Positions 29,512 to 35,927 of a stretch of DNA of 36,206 nucleotides are shown here, piece by piece. The position numbers were made by a program, and so were the translations under genes. The notes under the pieces were generated by a model. It saw only the letters and a list, made by a program, of their open reading frames with translations. It made no database searches and was not told where the DNA came from. Location of the stretch: the NCBI GenBank assembly GCA_026989095.1, contig JALSKA010000259.1, forward strand, positions 1 to 36,206, given 5' to 3'. The DNA comes from Ardenticatenaceae bacterium (lineage in GTDB: Bacteria > Chloroflexota > Anaerolineae > Ardenticatenales > Ardenticatenaceae). Numbering within the stretch: position 1 is the stretch's first letter; the number at the start of each line of letters is the position of its first letter.

Positions 29512-31083
29512 TCACGCGCGCCGTCCCCCGATGCTCTTCCCCTGGAGGAACCACAACAGGTAATCGGGGCCACCTGCCTTGCTGTCCGTGCCGCTCATGT
29601 TGAATCCCCCAAAGGGATGCACCCCCACCAGCGCGCCGGTACACTTCCGGTTGAAGTAGAGGTTGCCCACGTGGAACTCCTCGGCCGCGCGGTCGAGCCG
29701 TTCCCGATCCCGGCTGTAGACTGCGCCGGTGAGGCCGTACTCCGTCGAGTTGGCGATGCGCAGGGCATCGTCGAAGTCCTCCGCCCGAATGATGCTGAGC
29801 ACCGGGCCGAAGATCTCCTCCTGGGCGATACGGGCGTCCCAGGGCACGTCGGCGAAGATGGTGGGCTCGATGAAATATCCTCCCTCAATATCTAGCGCTC
29901 GGCCGCCCAGCACCAGGCGCCCCTCCTGGGTCCCGATCTCGATGTACGTGAGCACCTTGCGGAACTGCTCCTCGCTGACGAGGGGGCCCATCCAGTTGTC
30001 CGGGTTGGCCGGGTCGCCCACCGTGATGCGCTTGGCGCGCTCGATCACGCGCTCGACCATCTCATCGTACACTTCCTTGACGAAGATCGCCCGGGAGCCG
30101 GCCGAGCACTTCTGGCCCTGGTAGCCGAAGGCGCTCACCACCACCCCCTCGGTGGCCGCGTCCAAGTCGGCCGTCTCGTCCACGATCACGGCGTCCTTGC
30201 CCCCCATCTCCAAAATGGCCCGCTTGAGCCACTTCTGCCCCGGGTGGACCCTGGCCGCCCGCTCGTAAATGCGGCACCCTACCTCCTTGGAGCCCGTGAA
30301 GGAGATGAAGCGCGTCTTCGGGTGATCCACCATGGCCTCGCCGACCACCTCGCCGGGGCCGGTGAGGAAGTTGAGCACTCCGCGGGGCACGCCTGCCTCC
30401 CAGAGCAGGTGGGCCACGTGGTAGCCCACCACAGGCGACTGTTCGGCCGGCTTCAGCACGGCCGTGTTCCCGGTCACCAGGGCGGAGCTGGTCATGCCGG
30501 TGACAATGGCCACGGGGAAATTCCAGGGCGGAATGATGGCCCCCACGCCCAGAGGGATGTACCGGAAGGTGACCTCTTCCGAGGGAATCTGCGCCACGCT
30601 CTTGGGCGCTTCCTCCTCCAAGCGGAGCATGTGGCGGGCGTAATACTCCAAGAAATCGATGGCCTCGGCCGTGTCCGCGTCGGCCTCAACCCACGATTTG
30701 CCCACCTCGTAGACCATCCAGGCGGAAAACTCGTGCCGGCGGGCGCGCATGAGCTCGGCTGCCCGGAGCAAAATGGCCGCGCGCTCCTCGGCGGGCGTGC
30801 GCTGCCAGCGCTCGAAGGCCTCGTAGGCCACCTCCGTGGCCTTGGCCGCGTGCTCGGCCGTGCCGTTGGCCACAAAGCCGATCACCTCATCCGGACGGGC
30901 CGGGTTGACTGAGGGAAAGACATCGTCCAGCACGATCTCATCGTCGCCGATGACCAGGGGGTAGGTGCGGCCAAATTGCTCCCGCACGCGGCCGAGGGCG
31001 TCTTCAAAAGCCCGCCGGTTCTCGGGGTCTGTGAAGTCAGTGAGCGGCTCGTTGCGAAAGGGCGGCAGGTCCTGGTAACGCAT
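29512..31083 (-). CDS. 1-pyrroline-5-carboxylate dehydrogenase
   Basis: Aldehyde dehydrogenase that oxidises glutamate-semialdehyde (from proline or ornithine) to glutamate with NAD. The 523-residue protein has [15 protein letters not shown] (cofactor loop), the catalytic Glu in [12 protein letters not shown] near 292 and the catalytic Cys in [13 protein letters not shown] near 326. The long N-terminal part and the segment [21 protein letters not shown] are typical of the RocA group of P5C dehydrogenases. A perfect AAGGAGGTG stands before ATG 31083. No proline dehydrogenase is in the window. It could be called rocA/pruA. Confidence 0.93.
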
Positions 31084-31156: not shown

Positions 31157-31184
31157 AGTGTACGGGGAAAGTCGAACGTGTCAA
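31157..31184 (-). promoter_or_regulatory. promoter of the P5C dehydrogenase gene
   Basis: On the - strand: perfect -35 TTGACA (31184-31179), 16 bp, -10 TACACT (31162-31157). The leader of about 70 bases holds a small hairpin, CTCCCC/GGGGAG (31124-31143). Confidence 0.6.
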
Positions 31185-31207: not shown

Positions 31208-31237
31208 TTCGCACCGTGTGCCCTTCTCGGGTACAAT
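31208..31237 (+). promoter_or_regulatory. possible promoter of the DUF58 gene
   Basis: -35 TTCGCA (31208-31213), 18 bp, -10 TACAAT (31232-31237). Transcription from here would run through the DnaA-box cluster before the gene. The -10 is good; the -35 resembles that of the TPR gene. Confidence 0.45.
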
Positions 31238-31279
31238 GGGCCACGGACGATGCTCTGGTTGTGTCGTTCCGGCCGGCAA

Positions 31280-31352
31280 TGTGGAAAAAACGGGGCATAG
31301 GTGTGGAAAAACTTGGCTAGCCCTGTGGAAAACACCACCGGGGTGTGGATAA
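31280..31352 (+). promoter_or_regulatory. cluster of four DnaA-box sequences
   Basis: TGTGGAAAA at 31280-31288, 31302-31310 and 31324-31332 and TGTGGATAA at 31344-31352, all on the + strand. TGTGGATAA is the reverse complement of the classic DnaA box TTATCCACA, and TGTGGAAAA of the TTTTCCACA variant. Start-to-start distances are 22, 22 and 20 bp, about two helical turns, so all face one side of the helix. The area is clearly richer in A/T than its surroundings. It could be part of a replication origin, a DnaA-binding control element for the DUF58 gene, or a DnaA-titration site. Confidence 0.75.
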
Positions 31353-31437
31353 TTTGAAGATGATGGGAGCAGTGGACATGACACGGCCACACACGCCGAT
31401 CGCCGGCTCCGGACACGGGGAAGAGGGTGACCATTCC

Positions 31438-32304
31438 ATGCTCTTCGACGAAATGTTTCTCAGGCGCCTCAGTCGTCTCACCCTGGTCACCCACCAGAAG
31501 CGGCCCGGGCGGTTCCAGGGAGAGCGCCGGAGCCCAAAGCGGGGCCAGTCGGTGGAATTCGCCGACTACCGCCCGTATGTGCCCGGCGACGACTTTCGTC
31601 AGATTGACTGGCACGTTTACGCGCGGCTGGAGCGCTTCTTCGTCAAGCTCTTCGTCGAAGAGGAGGATATCACTGTCCACTTGCTGGTGGACGCAAGCCG
31701 CTCGATGGCGTGGGGCACGCCATCGAAGTTGGACACTGCCGTTCGGCTGGCCGGTGCTGTGGGGTACATTGTGCTCAACGGGCTCGACCGGGTGACTGCC
31801 TATGCCTTTGGCAACGCCGGCCACCGCTGGCCGGCCCGCCGTGGCCGGCGCGCGGCCACGCCCCTCTTCACGTGGCTGCGCTCGCTCGCCCCATCGGGCA
31901 CGGCCACATTTGCCCACTCCATCAGGCACTACGCCTACACCGCCGGGCAGCCAGGCCCCCTGCTGCTCTTCAGTGACCTGCTGGTGGACGATTGGGACGA
32001 AGGCGTTCGCGCGCTCGTGGCCCGCCGTTTCGAGGTCACGCTGGTTCACATCCTGTCGCCCGAGGAGCTGGACCCACCGCTCCACGGCGATCTCCTCCTG
32101 CGGGACTGTGAGCGGGGCGAAGGGGTGGAAGTCACGATCGACGACGACGTGCTGGCGAGGTACCGCCGTCACCTGGAGGCGTGGCGGGCGGGCATCCGCC
32201 GCTGGTGTGCGGAGCGGGGAGTCCGGTACCTCTTCGTCTCATCGGACACCCCCGTCGAGGATGTCATCTTCACCGACATGGTGCGCCACGGGGTGTTGCG
32301 CTGA
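31438..32304 (+). CDS. DUF58 domain protein
   Basis: A 288-residue cytoplasmic protein with the DUF58 core at about 25-75 (GERRSPKRGQSVEFADYRPY, VPGDDFRQIDWHVYARLERF), followed by a von Willebrand A-like segment with DASRSM at 85-90. DUF58 proteins are usually next to a MoxR AAA+ ATPase and act in poorly known chaperone-like systems; here no MoxR or vWA partner is in the window. Start uncertain: ATG 31438 (AGAGGGTGA upstream) gives a product beginning MLFDEMFLRRL as in relatives; ATG 31378 and a GTG at 31345 (inside the last DnaA box) are alternatives giving about 20-31 extra residues. Confidence 0.87.
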   Translation: MLFDEMFLRRLSRLTLVTHQKRPGRFQGERRSPKRGQSVEFADYRPYVPGDDFRQIDWHVYARLERFFVKLFVEEEDITVHLLVDASRSMAWGTPSKLDTAVRLAGAVGYIVLNGLDRVTAYAFGNAGHRWPARRGRRAATPLFTWLRSLAPSGTATFAHSIRHYAYTAGQPGPLLLFSDLLVDDWDEGVRALVARRFEVTLVHILSPEELDPPLHGDLLLRDCERGEGVEVTIDDDVLARYRRHLEAWRAGIRRWCAERGVRYLFVSSDTPVEDVIFTDMVRHGVLR

Positions 32305-32312
32305 AAGCAAGA

Positions 32313-32354
32313 GCCGCCTTCCCGAAGGCCCGTGTTCTCCTCCGGGAAGGCGGC
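32313..32354. terminator. terminator hairpin between DUF58 gene and rplL
   Basis: Perfect 12-bp inverted repeat GCCGCCTTCCCG / CGGGAAGGCGGC with an 18-base loop between the convergent stops at 32304 (+) and 32373 (-). On the - strand it is followed by TCTTGCTTTC, moderately T-rich, so it probably ends the ribosomal protein transcript. Confidence 0.75.
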
Positions 32355-32372
32355 AGCGTGCCGAGAGGACGG

Positions 32373-32753
32373 TTACTTGATCTCCACCTTGGCGCCCACG
32401 CCCTCCAGCTTCTTCTTGATCTCCTCGGCCTCTTCCTTGGAGATGCCCTCTTTGAGCGTGGTGGGCACGTCTTCCACGGCCTGCTTGGCCTCGCGCAAGC
32501 CCAGGCCCGTGATCTCGCGCACGGCCTTGATGACCTGAATGCGGTTGTCACCGGCCGCCGTGAGGACCACGTCGAATTCGGTCTTCTCCTCGGCGGCCTC
32601 GGCCTCGCCGGCGGCCGCGCCGGGCACAGCCGCCACGGCCACGGCCGCAGCCGCGCTCACACCCCAGTGGTCCTGGAGCCGCTTGGCCAGCTCGGCCGCC
32701 TCGACGAGCGTCAGTTGATCGAGCTGCTGGATGATGGCGTCCAAATCGGCCAT
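32373..32753 (-). CDS. rplL: 50S ribosomal protein L7/L12
   Basis: Stalk protein of the large ribosomal subunit that recruits translation factors. The 126-residue protein has the N-terminal dimerisation helix region, an Ala-rich hinge (about 34-52) and the C-terminal domain ([20 protein letters not shown] to the GVGAKVEIK end). ATG 32753, 18 bp after the rplJ stop. Last gene of the rplJ-rplL unit, followed by a terminator hairpin. Confidence 0.97.
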
Positions 32754-32771
32754 GTCTCTATCCTCCTCTTC

Positions 32772-33311
32772 TCATGAAGTTTGTTCAGCCGTCTGTTCCG
32801 CACGGGCTTGCAGGGTCAACACCAAATCGCGGTGAGGTGCCTGCAAGAGGGAGACCAACTGTTGGGCCGGCCCCTGAATGGTGGCCACCAGGGTGGCCAG
32901 AATCTCCTCGCGGGAGGGCAGGGTGGCCAAGTGGTTGACGTCCTCCACGGAGAGCACTTGGTCGCCGAAGAGCCCTCCCTTGATTTGCAAGTTCTCGTTC
33001 TCGTCGGCGTACTTCTTGAGCACCTTGGCCGGCGCCACCGGGTCCTCGAAGGCGAAGAGCACCGCCGTGGGGCCGACCAAGATCTCCTCGGGGACGGGCT
33101 TCTCGGCCTGCTGAAGGGCCAGGCGGAGCAACGTGTTCTTGGCCACGGTCAAGCGGCTATCGGGAGCAGCCTCGCGCAGCCGGCGGCGCACTTCGTCCAT
33201 GTCGGCCACGGTAAGCCCCCGGTAGTCGGCGAAGATGACCGCCTGGGACTCGCGGAAGGAGCGCGTGTATTCGGCCACCAACTGTTCCTTCTTCGAGCGT
33301 GGGATGGGCAA
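32772..33311 (-). CDS. rplJ: 50S ribosomal protein L10
   Basis: Base of the ribosomal stalk; holds the L7/L12 dimers and, in many bacteria, represses its own synthesis by binding its mRNA leader. The 179-residue protein begins PIPRSKKEQLVAEYTRSF and has FADYRGLTVADMDEVRRRLR, VAKNTLLRLAL and GPTAVLFAFEDPVAPAKV, typical of L10; the C-terminal helix region that binds L12 is present. The TTG at 33311 is chosen as start because AGGAGGTG stands 8 bases before it; the GTG at 33320 is part of that ribosome binding site. Confidence 0.94.
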   Translation of the reverse strand: MPIPRSKKEQLVAEYTRSFRESQAVIFADYRGLTVADMDEVRRRLREAAPDSRLTVAKNTLLRLALQQAEKPVPEEILVGPTAVLFAFEDPVAPAKVLKKYADENENLQIKGGLFGDQVLSVEDVNHLATLPSREEILATLVATIQGPAQQLVSLLQAPHRDLVLTLQARAEQTAEQTS

Positions 33312-33340
33312 TGTGTTCACCTCCTTTCCGGTTCCTCGGA

Positions 33341-33383
33341 CAAACAAAAAGGCCTTTGGGCAGCACGCGCCGCCACAAAGGCC
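33341..33383 (-). terminator. intrinsic terminator (attenuator) before rplJ
   Basis: GGCCTTTG (33383-33376) pairs with CAAAGGCC (33358-33351) and is followed by TTTTTGTTTG on the - strand: a classic stem plus U-run 30 bases before the rplJ start. As part of the L10 leader it probably acts as a regulated attenuator. Confidence 0.85.
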
Positions 33384-33475
33384 ACGGGAAGATGCTCCCG
33401 TTCAACCTCTGCCTCGGCAGGCGCGTGCACACGCTTTCAGCCCCACAGGGACACCTGCTGTCTTCAGCATTCCCC
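33341..33475 (-). promoter_or_regulatory. L10 leader ahead of rplJ-rplL
   Basis: The - strand transcript contains AAGACAGCAGGTG (33464-33452) and CCTGCCGAGGCAG (33421-33409), the conserved internal-loop sequences of the L10 leader (Rfam-type), and then an intrinsic terminator. Known role: L10 (with L12) binds the leader and favours termination before rplJ. The match was judged by eye. Confidence 0.8.
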
Positions 33476-33489
33476 TATTTGATTGGAGA

Positions 33490-33505
33490 GCCCCCACTAG
33501 GGGGC
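33490..33505. repeat. hairpin right after rplA
   Basis: GCCCCC-ACTA-GGGGGC, 6-bp stem with a 4-base loop, 5 bp beyond the rplA stop. No U-run follows, so it may be a processing or RNA-stability element between rplA and the L10 leader. Confidence 0.45.
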
Positions 33506-33510
33506 AAGGT

Positions 33511-34224
33511 CTACGACGTGCGCAACTGGAGAGCCTCGGGCACAGAGACGCGCACGCCCGGCCCCATCGTGCTCGCCAGGGCAATCCGGCGGAACATCTG
33601 CCCCTTGGCCCCGCTCGGGCGATTGGCCTGAATGGCCTCGATCATCGTCGCCATGTTCTCGAGCAACGCCTCGTCGCTGAAGCTCACCTTGCCGATGGGC
33701 ACGTGGAGGTTGGCGCTCTTGTCCAAGCGGTACTCCACGCGCCCCTGGCGTGCCTCGCGGATCACGCGGGGCAAGTCCTCCGCCGGCACGACCGTGCCCG
33801 TCTTGGGGCTCGGCATGAGCCCCCGAGGGCCGAGGATGCGTCCCAGCCGGCCGACGATGGGCATCATGTCAGGCGTGGCAATGGCCACGTCGAAATCGGT
33901 CCACCCCTGTTGGATCCGCTTGACCAAGTCGTCGGCGCCGACGAAATCGGCCCCGGCCTCCTCGGCCAGGCGGGCCGCTTCGCCCGTGGCGAAGACCAGC
34001 ACGCGGACTGGCTTGCCCGTGCCGTGGGGCAGCACGACGACGCCGCGCAGTTGCTGGTCGGCCTTGCGCGGGTCCAAGTTGGTGCGGATGTGCAACTCGA
34101 CGGTCTCGTCGAAGTTGGCATACGAGGTATCCTTGACGAGCCGGATGGCCTCCAACGGCGAGTAGTCGCGCGAGCGGTCAATCTTCTTTCGGGCCTCGAC
34201 GTACTTCTTTCCTCGTTTGGCCAT
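33511..34224 (-). CDS. rplA: 50S ribosomal protein L1
   Basis: Binds 23S rRNA at the L1 stalk near the E site and in many bacteria represses the rplK-rplA mRNA. The 237-residue protein begins [18 protein letters not shown], has [20 protein letters not shown] and [18 protein letters not shown], the family signature. ATG 34224, 51 bp after the rplK stop. About 200 bp, holding the L10 leader, separates it from rplJ. Confidence 0.97.
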
Positions 34225-34275
34225 GGGTCACTCCTTGTGGTCGAACGAGTCCAAGACTCTCCCACTGTGTTGATG

Positions 34276-34701
34276 TTAGTCCACCACTTCAATGCCCATG
34301 CTGCGGGCCGTGCCCTCGATCATGCGCATGGCGGCCTCGATGGATGTGGCGTTCAAGTCGGGCATCTTGAGCTCGGCAATCTCGCGAATTTGTTGGCGGG
34401 TCACCGTGCCCACCTTGTTGCGGTTGGGCTCGCCACTTCCTTTCTCAATGCCGGCCGCTTTCTTGAGGAGCGCGGCGGCCGGCGGGGTCTTGGTCACAAA
34501 CGTGAAGGAGCCGTCCTGGTAGACGGTGATTTCGACGGGGATCACCTGCCCCATCTGTGCCTTGGTGCGCGCGTTGTACTCCTTGCAGAACTGCATGATG
34601 TTGACGCCGTGCTGGCCCAAGGCAGGGCCGACAGGCGGCGCCGGGTTGGCCTTGCCGGCCTCCAACTGGAGTTTGATAATCGCCTTCACTTTCTTGGCCA
34701 T
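34276..34701 (-). CDS. rplK: 50S ribosomal protein L11
   Basis: Part of the GTPase-associated centre of the large subunit. The 141-residue protein begins [20 protein letters not shown], has the Pro-rich [16 protein letters not shown] (thiostrepton-site region) and ends [10 protein letters not shown], all as expected. ATG 34701. A pair of competing hairpins stands 22-57 bp upstream, between nusG and this gene. Confidence 0.97.
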
Positions 34702-34717
34702 CGTCCTCCTCTCCGCA

Positions 34718-34758
34718 CAAGAAAGCCCCTTGGTATCAGGGTTCAGGGGCTATACCAA
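34718..34758 (-). promoter_or_regulatory. candidate attenuator between nusG and rplK
   Basis: On the - strand, in order: TTGGTAT, AGCCCCT, GAACCCTG, ATACCAA, AGGGGCT (sharing one A with the unit before), TTTCTTG. TTGGTAT (34758-34752) can pair with ATACCAA (34736-34730), and AGCCCCT (34751-34745) with AGGGGCT (34730-34724). The two stems cannot form together; the second is followed by a short U-rich run like an intrinsic terminator. This is the layout of an antiterminator/terminator switch or of a plain terminator with an extra repeat. Confidence 0.65.
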
Positions 34759-34775
34759 TGGTATTTGGCTCTGGC

Positions 34776-35426
34776 TCAGGTGCGCTCCACTTGGAGGAAG
34801 TCGAGCTCGATGGGCGTCTCGCGCCCGAAGAAGCTCACCAGCACCCGCACCTTGCCCTTCTCGCGGTCGATGTAGTCCACGGTGCCGGGGAAATCCTTGA
34901 AGGGGCCATCGATGATGCGCACCTTATCCCCTTCCCGGAAGTTGATCTTGAACGTGGTGGGCTTCGTCTCCATGCGCTTGAGGATGCGGTCCACTTCCTC
35001 CTGGGAGAGGGGCGTGGGCTGATTGCCCATGCCCACGAAGCCGGTCACGTCGGGGGTGTGACGCACCACGGACCAGGAATCATCGTCCAAGATCATCTGG
35101 ACGAGCACGTAGCCGGGGAAGATACGCCGCTCGACCGTGCGCCGTTGTCCTCCCTTGAGCTCCACCACCTCCTCGGTGGGCACAATGACCTGGAAGATGC
35201 GGTCTTGCATCCCCATTGCCCTGATGCGCTGTTCGAGGTTTTTCTTGACCTTGTTCTCGTACCCCGAGTAGGTGTGAATCACGTACCAGCGCCGGCCGTC
35301 ATCCTCGGCCGCCTCGGCCTCTTCTTGAGGCGGCGCAGGTTCTTTTTCCCCCGAGGGCTCGCCGTCGAGGTTTTCCTCTTCCACGGCCTCTGGGATGCGA
35401 GTTGTCTCTTGGCGCTCTTCCACCAC
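34776..35426 (-). CDS. nusG: transcription antitermination factor NusG
   Basis: Binds RNA polymerase and links it with Rho or the ribosome. The 216-residue protein has an unusual acidic N-terminal tail of about 44 residues, then the NGN domain (RRWYVIHTYSGYENKVKKNL at about 45-64) and the C-terminal KOW domain (FREGDKVRIIDGPFKDFPG). The start is one of two consecutive GTG codons (35426 or 35423), preceded by AAGGTAGAGAACC. The family usually starts a few residues before the NGN domain, so the tail is an addition or the true start is further in; no ATG stands at the domain border. secE precedes it, as is usual. Confidence 0.95.
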   Translation of the reverse strand: MVEERQETTRIPEAVEEENLDGEPSGEKEPAPPQEEAEAAEDDGRRWYVIHTYSGYENKVKKNLEQRIRAMGMQDRIFQVIVPTEEVVELKGGQRRTVERRIFPGYVLVQMILDDDSWSVVRHTPDVTGFVGMGNQPTPLSQEEVDRILKRMETKPTTFKINFREGDKVRIIDGPFKDFPGTVDYIDREKGKVRVLVSFFGRETPIELDFLQVERT

Positions 35427-35528
35427 GGTTCTCTACCTTCGCGAAGTGTTTCGGGAGAGACCTCGCGCCCTCCCGTCCGTTTCACAATTCACAAGGGGAA
35501 CACAGCACGCCTCCGGGCCATACCGTGC

Positions 35529-35747
35529 CTAAAAGGTGACGATCAAGAACTCAACCAGCCGGGAAAAAATGAAGTCGAAGCTTCCCAGGAAGAGGCTGAG
35601 GGCCACGGTGACGGCCGTCACGACTATCGTCAGGTTCACCGCTTGCTCCCGAGTAGGCCACGTCACCTTTCTAAGCTCGGCGCGCACGTCGCGCACGTAA
35701 CGTGTAATCGGATTGGAGTCCTTGGCCGCCGTCCTAGCTTTCGCCAC
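35529..35747 (-). CDS. secE: preprotein translocase subunit SecE
   Basis: Small essential subunit of the SecYEG channel. The 72-residue protein has the typical ITRYVRDVRAELRKVTWPTR amphipathic segment before a single membrane helix at about 39-62. It sits between rpmG and nusG in the normal order. The 102 bp between it and nusG show only weak palindromes (CTTCGCGAAG at 35437-35446). Confidence 0.95.
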   Translation of the reverse strand: MAKARTAAKDSNPITRYVRDVRAELRKVTWPTREQAVNLTIVVTAVTVALSLFLGSFDFIFSRLVEFLIVTF

Positions 35748-35762
35748 GGGATTCCTCCCTCA

Positions 35763-35927
35763 CTACTTCGTTTCCCGGTGTAACGTGTGCCGGCGGCAAC
35801 GTCGGCAGTACTTGCGCAGCTCGAGCCGCTGCGGGTCGTTGCGCCGATTCTTCTGTGTGGTGTAGTTGTGTTCCTTGCACTCCGTACAGGCCAACGTTAT
35901 GACCATGCGGATGGCTTTCTTGGCCAT
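35763..35927 (-). CDS. rpmG: 50S ribosomal protein L33
   Basis: A 54-residue ribosomal protein found by direct translation of the - strand. It begins [20 protein letters not shown], continues [20 protein letters not shown] and ends [14 protein letters not shown]. The two CxxC pairs (residues 14-17 and 41-44) make it a zinc-binding (C+) form of L33. GAGGGTGAAAGC precedes the ATG. It lies between tuf and secE, as in many bacteria. Confidence 0.95.

Follow-up and report, generated by a model that had tools for sequence, protein, structure and literature searches.

A compact array of DnaA boxes in the genome of an Ardenticatenaceae bacterium raises the question of what such an array does away from the dnaA gene. 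The array lies in the window, the stretch of 36,206 nucleotides that was analysed, at positions 31280-31352 of the plus strand, and consists of four 9-mers in the same direction whose starts are 22, 22 and 20 bp apart. The first three boxes (31280..31288, 31302..31310 and 31324..31332) read TGTGGAAAA and the fourth (31344..31352) reads TGTGGATAA, the consensus; all four are on the plus strand exactly where the first-pass annotation had placed them, with starts at 31280, 31302, 31324 and 31344. That annotation had offered a replication origin, a DnaA titration or reactivation site, and DnaA control of a DUF58 gene as explanations; the analysis described here speaks against the origin and leaves both of the others standing. 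The array is flanked by the DUF58 gene (31378..32304, plus strand; Pfam PF01882, E 3e-37) and by a divergent gene for L-glutamate gamma-semialdehyde (P5C) dehydrogenase (29512..31083, minus strand; NCBIfam TIGR01237, 748 bits with a cut-off of 660), and these matches bear out the identities that had been given to both genes. The motif TGTGGAWAA occurs four times in the window, always within the array, whereas 100 dinucleotide shuffles yield it 0.13 times per window on average and once at most, so the earlier view that a chance origin is very unlikely holds. Across the whole genome (a metagenome-assembled genome of 3.29 Mb in 262 contigs), same-strand pairs of TGTGGANAA separated by 2-30 bp are found in this array only, and the reversed-pattern control gives 0 matches.

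Identification of the 9-mers as DnaA boxes draws on a comparison with other members of the class. Among 249 genomes of the class, 62 have three-box arrays on one strand with gaps of 10-14 bp (reversed-pattern control, 0), and many of these arrays adjoin dnaA. Within these arrays TGTGGAAAA occurs beside TGTGGATAA, which supports the boxes upstream of DUF58 as DnaA boxes. The DnaA protein of the organism itself carries GGRDHSTV, the usual motif in the DNA-binding domain of DnaA.

We examined the region upstream of DUF58 in the genome under study (G000), two genomes of the same genus (G001 and G002) and three of the same family (G003-G005). The array precedes the DUF58 orthologue in five of these six family genomes, the exception being G001; the first-pass annotation had named a lack of such conservation as evidence against its proposals, and the relatives show the opposite. 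G002 also has four boxes, spaced nearly as in the window, while G003, G004 and G005 have five or six when variants are counted. A core of three boxes, corresponding to boxes 2, 3 and 4 of the window, keeps its spacing of 22 and 20 bp invariant in all five genomes. Across the ten pairs that these genomes form, the 27 box positions of the core are 94% identical, a value that is partly a matter of construction, since the positions compared had been selected as boxes; identity at the 24 spacer positions is 28%, which is about the level of chance. A fixed place and fixed spacing combined with diverged spacers are, in our view, real evidence that selection has acted on putative binding sites. In G001 a single box is left, at approximately the same distance from DUF58 as box 4, and the array is thus not essential in every family member. 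Nor is it a general feature of the upstream region of DUF58 genes, an idea that we rejected: none was found at about 35 loci of DUF58 relatives outside the family, including those in other families of the class, in Herpetosiphon and in other Chloroflexota.

Within the family, the array has stayed with DUF58 while the other neighbor changed. The divergent P5C dehydrogenase gene stands upstream of DUF58 in G000 and G002, and moxR, co-directional with DUF58, takes this place in G003-G005. It follows that the array was kept with DUF58 through a change of neighborhood, and that P5C dehydrogenase is probably a mere neighbor outside the system. Most window genes that could be matched in the sampled parts of G004 map away from its DUF58 locus (FtsZ and FtsA are on contig C6), and in both G000 and G002 the surroundings of the array have lost synteny with the origin region of G004. 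The best named relatives of the DUF58 protein, at 80% and 68% identity, come from Ardenticatenia/Ardenticatenaceae metagenome-assembled genomes (MAGs), and on this basis the window is assigned to that family of the Chloroflexota. Open frames 3' of DUF58 (198, 546 and 341 aa, within 32181-35783) have no Pfam match at E 0.001, and those of 546 and 341 aa have no NCBIfam match either. At the other end, positions 38-1895 hold a gene of the homospermidine/deoxyhypusine synthase type (NF001980) directly followed by an agmatinase gene, forming a polyamine pair.

The position of the array relative to the DUF58 gene suggests that it belongs to the leader of this gene. The most likely start codon is the ATG at 31378: when leaders are aligned, the closest relative has an ATG at the same place, and other relatives also have one shortly upstream of the conserved LFDE region; the array therefore ends 25 bp before the start codon. 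A likely ribosome-binding site, GGGAG, can be read at 31365..31369 (plus strand). A promoter-like element directed toward DUF58, TTCGCA-18-TACAAT, is predicted at 31208..31237 (plus strand) from its match to the consensus, and the segment TGCCCTTyTCGGGTACAAT of this element is conserved in the sister genome G002. Another, TTGACA-16-TACACT (31157..31184, minus strand), points toward the P5C dehydrogenase gene and is largely conserved in G002. With the DUF58-directed element ending at 31237, transcription would start near 31244, and all four boxes would then fall within the leader, some 36-109 nt downstream of the start. The predicted promoter is conserved in two genomes only; in G003-G005, where moxR precedes the array and DUF58 follows it, an internal promoter is putative. 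The locus thus has the boxes at a predicted promoter and leader, conserved together with the gene, that one expects of a gene regulated by DnaA.

The array also has the box cluster that one expects of an oriC. No box within one mismatch was found in the 20 kb surrounding the dnaA gene of the organism (contig C135), and sampled skew is uniformly negative on the dnaA contig of G004; on these grounds we rejected an origin at dnaA in the genome under study. The suggestion that the origin of this organism is off its usual place is supported by the box-free surroundings of dnaA, but its placement in the window is not: contig C225 carries the origin-like locus, upstream of tsaD. An origin-like module is present upstream of tsaD/gcp in five of the six family genomes (G000, G001, G002, G004 and G005). 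It is composed of a three-box array with a spacing of about 21 and 20 bp, further boxes mostly in the opposite direction, and, 295-300 bp past the array's first box, an element in which a DnaA box is followed by a GC-rich stretch and CTACTA-type DnaA-trios. In the genome under study this element reads TTGTCCACATCTCCACAGCCCCTACTATGATGAC, next to tsaD, with boxes and trio within 3061-3387 of C225 (locus L234). The combination of DnaA box, spacer and DnaA-trio is the unwinding element known as BUS (PMC8287927). A loose DnaA-trio pattern is noisy genome-wide, control matches being as frequent as matches to the true pattern, so we used it only in combination with boxes; at tsaD the element was detected by pattern in G000, G002, G004 and G005 and by eye in G001. 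Between the boxes and the DnaA-trios upstream of tsaD are words that recur and are partly palindromic, ACACAACATCTTGTGG and CACTACATGTTGTAGG among them (G000, G001, G002, G004 and G005; loci L206-L210), possibly the sites of another origin-binding protein.

GC skew turns from negative to positive at tsaD in G000 (-0.020/+0.062), G001 (-0.045/+0.030), G002 (-0.028/+0.016) and G005 (-0.137/+0.040); the value for G000 comes from a contig of 9.5 kb and is individually weak, and the weight lies in the agreement of four genomes. In the ten-contig assembly of G004, sampled skew stays negative along the whole of C4 (the contig with dnaA), C6 and C9, changes from positive to negative in a terminus-like manner at about 650 kb of C3, and shows a single origin-like switch from negative to positive at about 430-450 kb of C5. 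Two box clusters lie in this switch region, one being the DUF58 array at 437.0 kb and the other, at 450.87-451.2 kb, lying between genes upstream of tsaD. G004 alone leaves the choice between them undecided, because the minimum of cumulative GC skew is broad (431-451 kb) and reaches its lowest value at 435.1 kb, closer to the DUF58 array, which is 2 kb away. Another same-strand pair of DnaA boxes, nearly identical in the two genomes, was observed at G004:C5:463344-463373, 12 kb from the origin-like locus of G004, and at G005:C1:42809-42838. Taken together, the module and the skew suggest that the origin of the species under study is upstream of tsaD.

The sixth family genome, G003, separates the array from the origin. 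By DnaA identity G003 is the most distant of the six (about 65% to each of the others, which share 69% or more). Its origin-like module, with a DnaA-trio element, is found just downstream of dnaA and has degenerate boxes with 21/20 spacing, followed by TCCACATATCCCCAGCCCCTACTAC; G003 is a MAG with 83% completeness, 1070 contigs and 4% contamination, in which tsaD was not found. In G006, from the same order, an origin-like module with a DnaA-trio element likewise lies near dnaA. Since G003 has both an origin-like module at dnaA and the array at DUF58, the array and the origin are independent of each other. The simplest history that we can infer places the move of the origin from dnaA to tsaD after the split of G003, with the DUF58 array already present by then and staying in place. 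In the class, an origin may have moved away from dnaA on more than one occasion. In G033, which belongs to another family and is a single contig (C1), a three-box array lies at about 501-506 kb (L258, L281 and L282), near a gene for a small SpoVS-like protein and far from dnaA (3.07 Mb); the skew switches locally at about 501 kb, 4-5 kb from the array, and the sampled skew is weak genome-wide.

With this information, the possible roles of the array can be weighed against each other. An origin role for the array, whether as the chromosomal replication origin or as a second active one, seems highly improbable to us, even though the skew minimum of G004 falls close to it and origin-like loci in the class are marked by three-box arrays like this one. 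The combination of box, spacer and DnaA-trio is absent by pattern, on either strand, at all five DUF58 arrays, and the skew does not switch at the array in the window (-0.047 on the left and -0.025 on the right) or in G002 (-0.054 and -0.047 on either side), both measured with short flanks only on one side. Instead, five genomes have the origin-like module at tsaD, where the skew does switch, and G003 carries the same DUF58 array while its module still adjoins dnaA. We therefore rejected the array as an origin; a skew minimum elsewhere, which the first-pass annotation had named as the result that would count against this reading, is what we observe as far as the fragmented genome allows. It is also quite improbable that the 9-mers are sites for another DNA-binding protein or a chance repeat. 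Binding by DnaA is itself a prediction, and three of the four boxes, being TGTGGAAAA, fall short of the full consensus. However, the shuffles hardly ever produce such words, place and spacing are conserved where the spacer sequence has diverged, and identical 9-mers occur at the origin-like loci of the class.

The main rival is that the array serves principally as a chromosomal DnaA sink, or as an inactivation or reactivation element similar to datA or DARS, and that its position at DUF58 is incidental. In E. coli, titration by a dense region of boxes near the origin has been reported (PMC12371093). The array is the sole near-consensus same-strand array of the genome, its boxes are closer to the consensus than those at the origin-like locus of the same genome, and in G004 it is part of a box-rich region, 14 kb away from the origin-like locus; a titration site in a tolerant intergenic region could look much the same. 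Nevertheless, the array stayed with DUF58 despite changes of neighborhood and the loss of synteny in G000 and G002, and a pure sink need not remain just ahead of one start codon. This linkage, which is read directly from the genomes, speaks against pure titration, and we regard such a role as possible but unlikely. We consider the array to be a real, conserved cluster of DnaA boxes outside the origin, with several near-consensus and non-random copies, for which a regulatory function is most likely on the basis of the sequences compared. Specifically, we favor with moderate confidence a DnaA-binding cluster in the 5' leader of DUF58 that represses or tunes the gene and possibly also holds DnaA.

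Under this regulatory reading, DnaA molecules would line up along one face of the helix, since successive boxes are about two turns apart, on an array that ends just ahead of the ribosome-binding site of DUF58. Bound DnaA could block or throttle transcription of DUF58, and expression of the gene would thereby depend on how much DnaA is present or on its nucleotide state, and in this way be linked to replication. The occupied array could also retain some DnaA. Activation of DUF58 by DnaA, rather than repression, is possible as well. A broader proposal, that the array is a DnaA switch coupling DUF58 (MoxR-DUF58 in the relatives) to the replication cycle and that this control site stayed behind when the origin moved from dnaA to tsaD, is plausible, and we advance it tentatively.

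Non-origin clusters of DnaA boxes are known from E. coli, where they include datA, DARS1 and DARS2. The DUF58 array is likewise a non-origin cluster, but it appears to sit in the leader of a gene. In B. subtilis, DnaA clusters outside oriC are located at ywlC, ywcI/vpr, yydA, sda/yqeG, gcp and trmE, and from such clusters DnaA activates sda and seems to repress several genes (PMC4447404). The DUF58 array resembles them in being a set of intergenic DnaA boxes away from the unwinding site, several of the B. subtilis clusters being regulatory regions under DnaA control (PMC4447404). It differs from them in its target gene and in its four same-strand boxes with 22/22/20 spacing before DUF58 in a member of the Chloroflexota. 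With the origin-like modules of Anaerolineae the array shares the box sequences, their placement on one strand and a distance of approximately two helical turns. Those modules have three same-strand boxes spaced by about 21 and 20 bp and, where seen, a box with DnaA-trio about 290-300 bp away, whereas the DUF58 array has a 22/20 core without opposing boxes or DnaA-trio and, in G000 and G002, no skew switch.

What is known of genes under DnaA control and of sites that hold DnaA comes, to our knowledge, mainly from a few model bacteria. The conserved array in Chloroflexota points to a testable target, DUF58, and no paper mentioning DUF58 together with DnaA was found in the literature searched. 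A search for work on Chloroflexi origins returned few papers, none of which describes these loci in its title or abstract. The analysis also locates the likely origins within the family and suggests that the origin shifted from dnaA to tsaD during its history; because the origin has likely moved to tsaD, gene neighborhood alone would misplace it here. The origin-like locus at tsaD instead of dnaA may therefore equal the array in interest.
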